Both the position numbers and the translations under genes were made by a program. The notes under the pieces were generated by a model. It did no database searches. It had not been told where the DNA came from and saw only the letters and a list, made by a program, of their open reading frames with translations. This document shows positions 28,384 to 54,505 of a DNA stretch of 64,000 nucleotides, in pieces. Source of the stretch: Treponema sp. (GTDB lineage: Bacteria; Spirochaetota; Spirochaetia; Treponematales; Breznakiellaceae); assembly GCA_031265845.1 (NCBI GenBank), contig JAISCC010000105.1, forward strand, positions 1 through 64,000. The letters run 5' to 3'. Every line of letters starts with the position of its first letter. Positions within the stretch are counted from its first letter, which is position 1.

Positions 28384-30450
28384 TTATGGTAGTGTCCCGC
28401 CTCCGAAACGGGCGAGGATTTCTGTAATTTCTCTTTCAAGAACCGCCCGTATGGTCTCTTGGTTTCCGGCGCGAACCGCCTCAAGAAAAAGAGGCAGATC
28501 AATCAAGGCGCTGGAAATCCCTCCCATTAATTCGCTCACTTCATGAGGCGACGTTTCGGGCAACAACATAAGCGCACAACTTTTTGTATGCTTAAAATAC
28601 GGTTGGGTGAATTTTCCTCCTTCGGGAACAATGACCGCAAACACCGGCGCCGCGTTGCAGGCGCTGCGGATATGCAACAGTACTATTCCCAGTTCGCTGA
28701 CAATCTGGGTGACAATGGACTCCCTGTCCATAAGGGCGCTACGGACAGACTCTGGATTTTCAGGCGCAAAGCGGGCTGCGGCGAAATGGACAAGCTCCTC
28801 AAAGGAGCAGTCCGCTTTGATCGGTTCAACGGCGAAATTGTCAAGCAAGAGCCGCGACTGCATGAAAATCTCAATAAGGCTGTCAAGCCGCTTCTCTAGG
28901 GAAACCGGACGCGCCGGTTGTTCCGCATCCCGCTTGATAAAGGCGAAGGCGTCGACAGCCGTCTGAATTTTCTGATAATCTTCCGCCCCAAGCAGCGTAT
29001 TCACCTGAACAAATGGCTTGTCTGTTTCCGTTAAAGGGATGGTTGAGACAAGAAAATCAACGTCAGCCCATGAAGCCTTGTCATCACAGCCGGACACCTC
29101 GACTTCCAATTCCCCCTTGAACCGCTTGCGCACCTGATACGCCAGCATATAGGACGCGCCGATGCCGGACACACAAACAATGCCTGCCCGAAGAACCCGC
29201 CGCCTGATATTCCGCTCGCCCAAAACGGCAAGAGCTGCCAAGAAATGTATCAGGATGAACGAAATTTCATTTGATGGAACAGGAATCCCAAGACGCTCCT
29301 CAAGAACTTTCACCGCCCTGCGCGTCTTTTCATATTCTTTAGGATAATTTTTTATAAGTTCCTCTTCAAGGGGATTCGGCAGCGCTATGCCTCCCTGCAA
29401 TCTGAGCAGCGCGGCTTCCAGATGCAATGACAAGAGCCGCGTCAACTGCTCATTAGTCTTCAAGATAGCCGCTATCGGGGGATCAAAGCGGTCTATCATC
29501 CGCATGGCAAGGCTTTGGATGAGCGTACGCCTGTCCACCGGACTCGGCTCAAGCGGGCTGTCCTGTTTTGATCGGCACGCCTGAATCCATCCGGCAAGCG
29601 CCTGCCGTTCCGTTTCAGGTACGGGTAGGGAGAATTCGTGTTCCATTTCCGCCGTGATATCTTCGGCAAGGGCGTTTTGGAACGCGCCCATTGAAACATG
29701 CCCGCTGACGCGGCTATTTGTGGCGATCCTGCTCTTTCGCAAACGGTCAACCATCACCATAAGGTAAACGGCGATCAGCGAGAAAGATTCTGCGGTCATC
29801 CAGTCAATCGCATCCTTCTTTCTCCGTAGAATTTCCCGTACGCCCATCTCAATGTCCTCGCCAGGAAAATCAAAGGACGCGGTGTATGACCTGCCGCCCG
29901 AATCTCCGTCTATCATAAAGCGGCTCACCAGAGCGGCGCGAAGAGCTTCCTCGGTTCCAACGCACTGAACGCCCATGCCGCTTTTGCGGGTGACGCTGAC
30001 GCCTCGCACAGAAAGCCAGTCTTCAAGCTCGTCAAGATCGTTGCTTACCGTGGATTCGCTTACACCAAGAACGCTTGCGTAGTAAAACAGTTTTTGCACT
30101 TCGCCGGCATTGGCGATGATCTCTACCAGCAGGCGGAGCAACCGCTCCCGTTTTGAAATAGGATGGGGGGGGGGGGGGGTAAGAACCTCAAGCATTCTCT
30201 GACGGGATTCGCTATCGCCGGAAAGGGTCAATCCTTTGCCCGGAATGGAAAGCAGGGCCGTGTGAAAGGCGGACAGCGCCTCATCCGCGCTTTCCAGTTC
30301 CCGAAAGACGGTCCGGCGGCTTGTGTTCAACGCCGCCGACAAGTCGTCGATCTTCACCGGCTCATCAGAACGCGCCAACAGTTCAAGCAACCGCACCAAT
30401 CTGGGAGAAAGATTCCGCACAGGATTAGACGCCACAACCGTTTCTTCCAT
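28384..30450 (-). CDS. PRD/BglG-type transcriptional activator (MtlR-like) with HTH, EIIB-like and EIIA-like regions
   Basis: LLELLARSDEPVKIDDLSAALNTSRRTVFRELE HTH; CVSGIGASYMLAYQVRKRF EIIB-like; PRD-like region; contains a 15-nt homopolymer. Confidence 0.88.
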   Translation of the reverse strand: MEETVVASNPVRNLSPRLVRLLELLARSDEPVKIDDLSAALNTSRRTVFRELESADEALSAFHTALLSIPGKGLTLSGDSESRQRMLEVLTPPPPHPISKRERLLRLLVEIIANAGEVQKLFYYASVLGVSESTVSNDLDELEDWLSVRGVSVTRKSGMGVQCVGTEEALRAALVSRFMIDGDSGGRSYTASFDFPGEDIEMGVREILRRKKDAIDWMTAESFSLIAVYLMVMVDRLRKSRIATNSRVSGHVSMGAFQNALAEDITAEMEHEFSLPVPETERQALAGWIQACRSKQDSPLEPSPVDRRTLIQSLAMRMIDRFDPPIAAILKTNEQLTRLLSLHLEAALLRLQGGIALPNPLEEELIKNYPKEYEKTRRAVKVLEERLGIPVPSNEISFILIHFLAALAVLGERNIRRRVLRAGIVCVSGIGASYMLAYQVRKRFKGELEVEVSGCDDKASWADVDFLVSTIPLTETDKPFVQVNTLLGAEDYQKIQTAVDAFAFIKRDAEQPARPVSLEKRLDSLIEIFMQSRLLLDNFAVEPIKADCSFEELVHFAAARFAPENPESVRSALMDRESIVTQIVSELGIVLLHIRSACNAAPVFAVIVPEGGKFTQPYFKHTKSCALMLLPETSPHEVSELMGGISSALIDLPLFLEAVRAGNQETIRAVLEREITEILARFGGGTLP
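30165..30179. repeat. 15-nt poly-G (poly-C on coding strand) tract inside the MtlR-like gene
   Basis: Direct count: 6 G at 30165-30170 plus 9 G at 30171-30179; encodes T-PPPP-H. Confidence 0.95.
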
Positions 30451-51840: not shown

Positions 51841-51869
51841 TTGACTTTTCAAAAAACATGCGGTATAGT
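51841..51869 (+). promoter_or_regulatory. sigma70-type promoter TTGACT-17 bp-TATAGT
   Basis: -35 51841-51846; -10 51864-51869; spacer 17 bp. Confidence 0.7.
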
Positions 51870-51960
51870 ATTAGTCATAAAATTGTTGTGAAAGAAGCCG
51901 ATCCATGTTTGGAAGCTGGCGCGGCGGCTTTTCAACGATTTCTTAATAAGGAGGAAACGA

Positions 51961-52041
51961 ATGGTTTACAAAAAAGCGCATAGCCTAAAGAATAGAGCGC
52001 AAACAGTGGAAAAAATTGCCCCCCCCCCCCCCCATGTTTAA
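51961..52041 (+). CDS. Leader ORF MVYKKAHSLKNRAQTVEKIAPPPPHV containing a 15-C tract
   Basis: SD AAGGAGG at 51948-51954, ATG 51961, stop TAA 52039-52041 in the frame of the present tract length. Confidence 0.6.
   Translation: MVYKKAHSLKNRAQTVEKIAPPPPHV
52019..52033. repeat. 15-nt poly-C tract
   Basis: Direct count: CC at 52019-52020 plus 13 C from 52021. Confidence 0.95.
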
Positions 52042-52258
52042 TTACGCCTGAACTTCTTGAGCATTATCTTATATACAAATATTTACATGCAACCGCTTTT
52101 TTAGACGGTTCCGTCTCCTTTTTGCGCCCTGAAACGGGGGCTTTCTCTCAGTCTGCCCCGCGCCCCAAGCGCGTTGCGGAATGCGGATTGTCCGCATCCA
52201 TATATTTTACGGGAGTCTCGCCCATGCGCGGCTCCCCCATTAAAAGGAGAGGAACTTT

Positions 52259-54505
52259 ATGAAAAAAGCCCTTTATCTTTCGGTGGCGACGGCTTTGCTG
52301 TTCGCCGTGATTCTTGCCGGCTGCCAGGATGGACTTCAGGAAACCTTGAACGAGCAGATACGAACGTATCCCGCTCTTCCCGCGCCGAAAAACCTGAAGA
52401 CGACTGTCAGCCCCGGCGCCATTGTGATTGGCTGGGACGCGGTGAAAGACGCCGCTAGCTATGAGGTGTACCGCAGGGACACCGTAACGCAACAGTCGAG
52501 ACAGATTGCAAGCCTTACCGTAGCCCAGACCTCCTATATAGACAAAGTGGGTTACGACAACTACCTTGCTGACGGACGCAAGTACACCTACACGGTGGTT
52601 GCCCTTGGCAAAACGGTTGGCAGCAATAACGTGATACTGAACGGAGAGGCGACCGTTGACGCGACCGCGCAGATTCCCCCCCGGGGTAGCGACGAGGTTA
52701 TTACAGCCGAAGCTATAAAAGAGCTTGCCAGCAGGGTTATAGTAAATACCAATGGGCAAGACACATTAGAAGTGACATGGATCGGCGACCCTCTTCTGAT
52801 ATACTCCGCTCTTTACACCTACGGCAATGGAACAGTCCCGTTAAGGTATAATCTCTGGAATGATGGGAACGGTGGTGGCAATATTCTAGGAAGCGTCTAC
52901 AAACGGCATGCAATCCCCCTCGTTGGCGGCGCGACTACCGTAGAAATAACCGCGAAGTGGGAGGATAATGATAGAGAGTATTATAAGAACGTGGTGGAGA
53001 CAGAGACGTTTGAGGCGGCCGCCACGCTGCTTGCGAACGTTAAGAATTTCGATGTAACTGCCAAGGAGACCGGAATCTATACTATCACATGGGAAGCCGT
53101 AGAGGGAGCTGGATCTGGACTTGCGGGCTATGACATTTGGAAAGCCGAATTGATCGGCAACATATTAGACGATGGTAGCTATACTGACGGTGACGTGGGT
53201 TATGAAGCGGACTGGCCGTCGGCAACGCTTGGCGAATGGGAGCCGGTCATCGGGACTCTCTCCAGGGACGGGAACAAATACACGCTTATTGAGACCCGCG
53301 AAGACGTAGACACATCCAAAAAGTACTTCTACGGCATTGTCGCCAAGAACAGCGACAGTGGCGTGAAATCAGGACTGTCCACCAAGATAGTGAATGCCAT
53401 TGTCGTCCCGGCAATCGCCACAACGTTTGTGAACGGCGACATTGTTGAGATCAAAGGCGCGAACGGGAAGCCGCAGCTTATAATTTCGGTGGATGTTGTG
53501 GCAGGCGAGACCGTCACCAAACTGGAAAGGGCGGAAGCCGTGTTTGCGAGTGCTGCTGCAGCTGAGCCGCAGTCTGTCGGCGGCTACGCCGAGCTACCGG
53601 TGGCGACCCGCACCAATATTGGCGCATACTCCACATGGATTGACACGCAGACTGCTATACGCGCCTCATACGCCTACAGACTGACCATAACTAAAGACGG
53701 CGGCTATACAAAAGAGATCGTCGCGTACAAGAAGGACGGATCGTATACGCCCTTCATTGATAAGGTTACCGTATCTGTGGCGCCCGCTTTGGCAAAGGTG
53801 TACAGCCTCAAGATTTCGCTTGACAGTACTCTCGCCTATACAGGCGACTTGACGATGGTGAACGTCTATCAGGCGGAAGTGAATTCGACGGGAGCAACGA
53901 TTCTGGAGAGCGCATGGACACCGGTTACTATTCCAGCGGCGCAAAGTACTTATGAGAAGCTCTCTACCGTCGGCTTTATACAGTCCGGACTGACGGCTGG
54001 CAAGTACTATGCATATCGCGTGGTACTGACTTCAAAGGATGGTGAAAATCCCGAGAAAACGGTTTCCAACCCCGCCTCAAGCGACGGAATACAGCCTTCA
54101 GTGGCTTCTCCCAGTAGTACCGGATGGGCGAAGGCTGTGGGGACTGTCCGGTCCGGGATCGCACTGTCCGGATCCGCTGACGACGACCCTCCTGAGCTCA
54201 CGAAACTTGAAAAAGCGAAGGTGTTTGTGGTGGATGATACCTATAAGAAAGTAACTGGTGCGGCGTATGAGACAATTATTGACAAAGCCGGAAGCGTCGA
54301 CATGGCCAATCCCGACATTGCGGCATATTCTTACTTTATCCTTTTCTCAAACACTGACTTGTCAGCCCTGAAGGACACCGGCGCCAATCCGAAGCTGAAG
54401 ACTTATTATTTGGTGGCAGAGAACAATACCGGTGTATACGCCGACTCCGACTTCTCGACATTCACTGTAGACACAGATGGGAAGGTGGAATGGTTGGCGC
54501 CATAA
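52259..54505 (+). CDS. Surface lipoprotein with fibronectin type III-like domains
   Basis: Lipobox VILAGCQDG; FN3-like PAPKNLKTTVSPGAIVIGWDAVKDAASYEVYRRD...KYTYTVVAL and further copies; SD AAGGAGAGG. Confidence 0.82.
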   Translation: MKKALYLSVATALLFAVILAGCQDGLQETLNEQIRTYPALPAPKNLKTTVSPGAIVIGWDAVKDAASYEVYRRDTVTQQSRQIASLTVAQTSYIDKVGYDNYLADGRKYTYTVVALGKTVGSNNVILNGEATVDATAQIPPRGSDEVITAEAIKELASRVIVNTNGQDTLEVTWIGDPLLIYSALYTYGNGTVPLRYNLWNDGNGGGNILGSVYKRHAIPLVGGATTVEITAKWEDNDREYYKNVVETETFEAAATLLANVKNFDVTAKETGIYTITWEAVEGAGSGLAGYDIWKAELIGNILDDGSYTDGDVGYEADWPSATLGEWEPVIGTLSRDGNKYTLIETREDVDTSKKYFYGIVAKNSDSGVKSGLSTKIVNAIVVPAIATTFVNGDIVEIKGANGKPQLIISVDVVAGETVTKLERAEAVFASAAAAEPQSVGGYAELPVATRTNIGAYSTWIDTQTAIRASYAYRLTITKDGGYTKEIVAYKKDGSYTPFIDKVTVSVAPALAKVYSLKISLDSTLAYTGDLTMVNVYQAEVNSTGATILESAWTPVTIPAAQSTYEKLSTVGFIQSGLTAGKYYAYRVVLTSKDGENPEKTVSNPASSDGIQPSVASPSSTGWAKAVGTVRSGIALSGSADDDPPELTKLEKAKVFVVDDTYKKVTGAAYETIIDKAGSVDMANPDIAAYSYFILFSNTDLSALKDTGANPKLKTYYLVAENNTGVYADSDFSTFTVDTDGKVEWLAP

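Follow-up and report, generated by a model that had tools for sequence, protein, structure and literature searches.

Simple repeats are known to cause phase variation both from promoters and from within coding sequences (CDS). In meningococcal siaD, a poly-C frameshift halts translation and may expose the RNA to Rho, and in Treponema pallidum the poly-G tracts of the tpr genes act in the promoter. Simple-sequence contingency loci that act at the level of translation have been described in Neisseria, Campylobacter, and Helicobacter (PMC2823697, PMC5084427), and the tract types named in the first of these accounts are promoter, 5'-coding, and C-terminal only. T. pallidum is counted among the organisms with large repeat-mediated repertoires (PMC11868660). 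A sequestered ribosome binding site (RBS) that is opened in a uORF-dependent manner has been described for Salmonella mgtQ-mgtB (PMC8092293).

In the window (the whole stretch of 64,000 nucleotides analyzed here), G/C runs reach at most 7 nt, with the exception of G15 at 30165-30179 and C15 at 52019-52033. The C15 run lies 58 nt inside a short leader ORF upstream of a lipoprotein gene. It is far longer than composition predicts, as is characteristic of simple-sequence contingency loci, and the upstream stop overlaps the downstream start as ATGA (52259-52262), as is characteristic of translational coupling. We propose, with a probability of roughly 0.7, that the C15 run serves as a contingency locus, located in a leader that is translated, filters reading frames, and is coupled to the downstream start. 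The features of the locus are collected in Table 1.

Table 1. Features of the C15 leader and the lipoprotein gene in the window.
Feature	Position	Strand	Basis or remark
Promoter TTGACT-17-TATAGT	51841..51869	+	Sequence (TTGACT 51841-51846, 17-nt gap, TATAGT 51864-51869); recurs in paralogous leaders C94a, C94b, C170
5' UTR hairpin (GTTGTGAAAGAAGCCG...CGGCTTTTCAAC) of the leader family	51884..51936	+	Aligned in 7 loci
Shine-Dalgarno (SD) AAGGAGG of the leader ORF	51948..51954	+	Sequence; kept in paralogues and in G002, G004, G006
Mini-leader ORF ahead of the tract, MVYKKAHSLKNRAQTVEKI + G, ATG 51961	51961..52018	+	Homologous starts in sister loci
C15 homopolymer	52019..52033	+	Sequence; 1 of ~179 genomic C/G runs of at least 10 nt
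Passing frame (13 or 16 C), 75 codons open	52035..52262	+	Its TGA (52260-52262) shares bases with the lipoprotein ATG, forming ATGA
Early stops shutting the other two frames	52039..52051	+	TAA 52039-52041 (15 C, leader ending APPPPHV*); TGA 52049-52051 (14 C)
Anti-SD/anti-start segment	52095..52122	+	Predicted to pair with 52242-52269, 8 + 5 + 9 bp
Palindrome ATGCGGATTGTCCGCAT	52181-52197	+	Conserved in the leader family
Hairpin GGGAGTC...GGCTCCC	52211-52236	+	Conserved in the leader family
Lipoprotein SD AAAAGGAGA (52242-52250) and start ATG 52259	52242..52261	+	Sequence; SD predicted fully paired if the leader is untranslated
Presumed regulated gene, 748-aa lipoprotein	52259..54505	+	LAGC lipobox, fibronectin-III-like repeats

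The original prediction had located the promoter, SD, ATG, and C15 correctly to the base, and its stops for 15 and 14 C and its 75-codon frame for 13 or 16 C, ending in ATGA, were all confirmed. Each single-C change alters the leader frame, and a single frame gets to the lipoprotein gene. The assembled C15 represents the closed phase, from which one C more or two C fewer would give the passing frame; this tract length is that of a fragmented assembly and may be fixed in nature. Taken by itself, the 75-codon opening at this locus is unremarkable (p ~0.18), and it is significant only within the genome-wide set described below. The lipoprotein gene carries a separate SD, ATG, and signal peptide, located 225 nt past the tract. 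It has paralogues of 46-50% identity (two at C94, one at C103), and a domain search of the protein returned GH85_C only, below cutoff. The pairs of the 5' UTR hairpin are mostly conserved across the seven aligned loci, among which we observed no double-sided covariation; Rfam freshwater-2, considered as a known RNA element for this hairpin, was set aside as sub-threshold (21.9 versus 49.9 bits). The palindrome ATGCGGATNNTCCGCAT (window 52181-52197; L041) is also present alone beside an unrelated gene in another genome (G004:C76), and it may therefore be a dispersed repeat.

We confirmed the claim that TCTCCTTTT (52114-52122) matches the reverse complement of the lipoprotein SD AAAAGGAGA (52242-52250) exactly, and found that the helix exceeds this earlier description, with GTTCC (52108-52112) facing GGAAC (52251-52255) and GCTTTTTT (52095-52102) facing AAAAAAGC (52262-52269). 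The duplex has a predicted energy of -27.6 kcal/mol versus -16.9 +/- 2.6 kcal/mol in shuffled leaders (p=0.003). The lipoprotein SD is predicted to be paired, and local structure would pair it also when the leader is occupied. Among five sister leaders, C94a alone retains a weaker, non-significant pairing (p=0.19) and the rest are without it, which makes the helix a local feature. Thus, the predicted anti-SD duplex exceeds chance at the window locus, but it is not conserved in the sister loci, and we rejected it as a general mechanism.

In the same genome, further copies of the leader DNA precede three more FN3-type lipoproteins (C94 twice, here C94a and C94b, and C103), and a fragment of it sits at a contig end (C170); it is also present in three genomes of the same genus (G002, G004, and G006). 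All copies with complete sequence retain the promoter, hairpin, SD, MVYK..SLKK-like leader, and tract. The mini-leaders of the sister loci begin MVYQTVKSLKK, MVYKTVRSLKK, MVYKTARSLKK, MVCKKAHSLKK, and MVYEEAQSLKK, and their tracts are 15, 16, or 18 nt long. Past the tract, no single frame is conserved across these leaders. The post-tract frame ends as ATGA in the window and in G004, enters the lipoprotein ATG in frame in C94a and C103, stops 15 nt before the lipoprotein start in C94b, and stops shortly before the gene in G006. Stops in the homologous frame of related loci had been named as evidence that would speak against the original prediction; C94a and C103 do carry such stops, but in both another frame is open and runs into the lipoprotein ATG. 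In G004, the same leader lies ahead of a different, unrelated gene, again with an ATGA ending.

The 3.57-Mb genome contains about 179 C/G runs of at least 10 nt (54 + 84 + 41). The stretches taken for analysis hold 157 of them, 112 interior (>200 bp from contig ends) and 45 near contig ends. Interior runs are narrowly distributed in length, with 105 of 112 measuring 14-16 nt and 68 exactly 15, and 90 of the 112 are intergenic according to a simple codon-usage gene caller. At 68 of these 90 intergenic tracts, the nearest downstream gene lies in the C-sense direction, regardless of the orientation of the upstream gene. Alignment revealed several paralogous module families. In at least 33 modules, the tract is preceded at 8-32 codons (farther in one case) by a strong SD and a start codon, and most of these SD-led mini-leaders stand behind a near-consensus TTGACA-17-TATACT-type promoter. 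Homologous mini-leader starts recur across modules (MNKPYYA, MKKAYYVNS, MVYKTVRSLKK). In module families A, C, and D (L048, L059, L106, L075), the SD-to-start spacing is 11-17 nt, which consistently exceeds the usual spacing. Many contigs of G000, G002, and G004 break at tracts (e.g., L033, L034), and some of them end in junk poly-G of up to 54 nt, a pattern expected if sequencing or tract length is heterogeneous there.

One module lies upstream of the native argG promoter (L098, G000:C143:42172), and its frame ends at -133. A tract was absent upstream of the argG orthologue in 17 of 17 same-family or same-genus cases examined, some with <600 nt of upstream sequence, so that no orthologous tract comparison is possible at argG. 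Because the argG module is present only in this genome, modules appear to be gained, at argG recently. Not every module need control the next gene.

We observed that the regions downstream of the tracts are unusually open in one frame. Two frames closed within 15 codons and a third open for at least 50 were found at 37 of 90 intergenic tracts, versus 11 of 90 on the antisense side. The longest open frame reached p<0.05 against dinucleotide shuffles in 34% of tract-to-gene regions. The corresponding share was 8% among 99 tract-free upstream regions (Mann-Whitney 2e-7) and 10% when the opposite strand was read (7e-6). In 32 of 53 regions, the longest open frame came within 50 nt of the gene (10.0 expected), versus 32 of 93 controls (20.1 expected). 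Moreover, a stop fell at -12 to +17 of the gene start in 19 of 53 tract-to-gene regions (3.4 expected by shuffle; Poisson 4e-9), and an exact ATGA was present in 10 of 53 (1.4 expected, ~7-fold; Poisson 2e-6); the SD-guided gene starts come from a homemade caller, and because some modules are paralogous and module families are not independent, these p-values are optimistic. In tract-free controls, the stop fell in the same interval in 10 of 100 (5.9 expected), and ATGA occurred twice (1.3 expected). Frames ending well short of the gene were found in 23 of 53 modules.

The genes that begin at an ATGA overlap are diverse. They include the window lipoprotein and four predicted lipoproteins (L048, L078, L104, and L152, the last with BspA repeats), along with a secreted protein (L059), an outer-membrane protein (L147), a glycosyltransferase (L082), a chemoreceptor (L094), and an Fe-hydrogenase-like sensor (L102); the SD of L078 is weak. 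Current phases are mixed, with 4 open, 12 needing +1, and 8 needing +2, which suggests drifting tract lengths. The mean codon score of the passing frame (-0.08) lies between those of true genes (+0.128) and of wrong frames of genes (-0.186), and the frame is therefore open without looking like a gene. Judged by its codon usage, it is apparently kept open and not kept as a protein. These genome-wide statistics strongly support the core of the proposed frame-dependent coupling, with the tract selecting the leader frame and the passing frame coupled to the start. Its anti-SD part is locus-specific.

Five other genomes were sampled, four from species of the same genus and one (G022) from another genus of the same family. 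The four same-genus species have equal tract lengths and similar promoters and leaders, with 4 exact ATGA overlaps (~0.6 expected) and 6 near ones (~1.5 expected), overlaps that lend independent, if weak, backing to the coupling idea. In G022, which has 123 tracts, a stop near the start was seen in 0 of 8 testable modules, with no enrichment; the stop-start rule is therefore established for this genus only, and the G022 tracts may work differently. In the wider order, such tracts are few or none.

A smaller group of tracts lies inside genes. The G15 run of the window, C15 on the sense strand, is located in a 688-aa PRD/Mga-type PTS regulator (28384-30450, minus strand), directly after the first HTH domain; it is currently in frame, the gene adjoins a PTS EIIBC gene, and the tract is a candidate for a classical intragenic phase-variable locus. 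LpoB-like secreted proteins L113 (C4:55025) and L129 (C78:5686) have the arrangement MYKTVSGL-C15-signal peptide, a pattern (MYK-VS-L, then poly-C) that places the tract inside the n-region of the signal peptide. In the lipoprotein family of L061, L114, L117, and L124, the poly-C run directly follows the lipobox, where it would be read as a Pro-rich stretch when in frame and would lead to a truncated protein when out of frame.

The results presented above led us to a model for how a homopolymer in a leader could switch a downstream gene. What is established is the anatomy of the leader and its recurrence at scores of loci, together with a frame opening and a stop-start overlap that depart from chance and a codon usage unlike that of genes. 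In the model, ribosomes would start at the SD-led mini-ORF and then enter the C run, whose length would shift by slipped-strand mispairing. The bases past the run would serve as a frame filter, stopping two frames within a few codons and leaving the third open to the downstream start codon; because of this filter, a change of one C would move the locus between closed and open states. When closed, ribosomes would exit >200 nt upstream, and the lipoprotein SD would stay paired or the untranslated transcript would be lost. When open, ribosomes would reach the lipoprotein start, terminate, and reinitiate there. Slippage of the tract in the population, translation of the leader, and the size of the effect are parts of this model that we infer, as is the division of the effect among reinitiation, SD unmasking, and Rho polarity. 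The exact stop-start overlaps favor termination-reinitiation. For modules whose frame enters the gene without a shift or ends 20-50 nt short of it, a less strict effect is required, such as ribosomes that keep the RNA open or shield it from Rho. Extended to the lineage, we consider it fairly probable that a dispersed cassette of promoter, SD, mini-leader, C15, and two-stop filter sets unrelated genes under independent random frame switching via stop-start coupling, with dozens of copies per genome, each outside the gene it controls. The genes behind it include lipoproteins, chemoreceptors, a glycosyltransferase, a diguanylate cyclase, and others.

We considered whether the same frame switch could act through Rho polarity, such that the untranslated C-rich leader is terminated before the gene and the stop-start overlap is secondary. 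Poly(C) is a classic Rho ligand, a Rho gene is present in the genome, and the tract-gene distances of 150-500 nt suit Rho. Tract-to-gene regions also have a C>G skew of +0.046 versus -0.046 in tract-free controls (p=1e-5), and polarity would work for modules that reach the gene in any relative frame, read-through included. However, this skew is modest, and polarity needs no stop placed exactly on the start codon, where ATGA is enriched about 7-fold. Given the exact overlaps, the looser modules, the presence of Rho, and the mild skew, we rank coupling first and regard polarity as its chief rival, possible but doubtful as the primary effect. A reading in which the open frames are real proteins containing an intragenic tract, with the predicted downstream start either wrong or that of a second gene, applies to the subset comprising L113, L129, L061, L114, L117, L124, and the G15 of the window. 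For most modules, the passing frame is without gene-like codon usage, and the genes downstream have an SD of their own, followed by a signal peptide, lipobox, or conserved domain start. Passing frames were accordingly rejected as ordinary proteins save in the truly intragenic subset, and we judge this reading improbable as a general account.

Still less likely is an action at the level of DNA or transcription, whether by promoter spacing as in tpr and porA, a G-quadruplex, or polymerase slippage, with frames irrelevant. Cases of long G/C tracts acting in promoters are known in spirochetes. At the window locus, however, a near-consensus promoter lies upstream of the tract, its -10 element ending at 51869 and the tract beginning at 52019, ~150 nt apart, which led us to reject promoter spacing; in most modules, the promoter likewise stands upstream of the mini-leader. 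A DNA-level reading also leaves the strand-specific open frame and the ATGA enrichment unexplained. That the tracts are neutral or are assembly artefacts might be suspected from the 45 of 157 runs near contig ends and the poly-G junk at some contig ends in relatives, but each of the 112 interior runs is flanked by unique sequence, six genomes agree in tract length, and tract position, orientation, and frame are all non-random. We therefore regard this as very improbable.

We found no description of a leader-coupled homopolymer switch in the open-access literature (most subscription papers lay outside its scope), and the dispersed, frame-filtering, translationally coupled leader looks like a new form of simple-sequence phase variation. 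If this is true, the leader would be a third place for such variation, and a transposable-like leader would give any gene a frame-set switch with protein and promoter untouched. It would also explain dozens of switches in one genome, including those upstream of intracellular enzymes and sensors, each locus with a predictable number of C's for its on state, and would mean that much of the phase variation of uncultured bacteria escapes gene-calling pipelines, since these disregard short leaders.

The closest known systems each share part of this arrangement. With the loci of Neisseria, Campylobacter, and Helicobacter, it has in common a long homopolymer, a frame-dependent on/off logic, and many loci per genome, but those tracts occupy the 5' portion of the CDS under control, whereas here a separate leader ORF contains the tract and the regulated gene retains an SD and start of its own. 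The poly-C frameshift logic is likewise that of siaD, whose tract is in its own CDS and not in a leader. The tpr genes, from a probably related order, resemble it in having G/C homopolymers upstream of genes, but the tpr tracts are in the promoter; the window tract is transcribed and lies inside a leader ORF ~150 nt past the promoter, and the tpr analogy first drawn for it does not fit. As in mgtQ-mgtB and ATGA coupling, the downstream start is proposed to become accessible once a short upstream ORF is translated, but those systems respond to physiology, whereas in the present case the frame would depend on a mutable tract.
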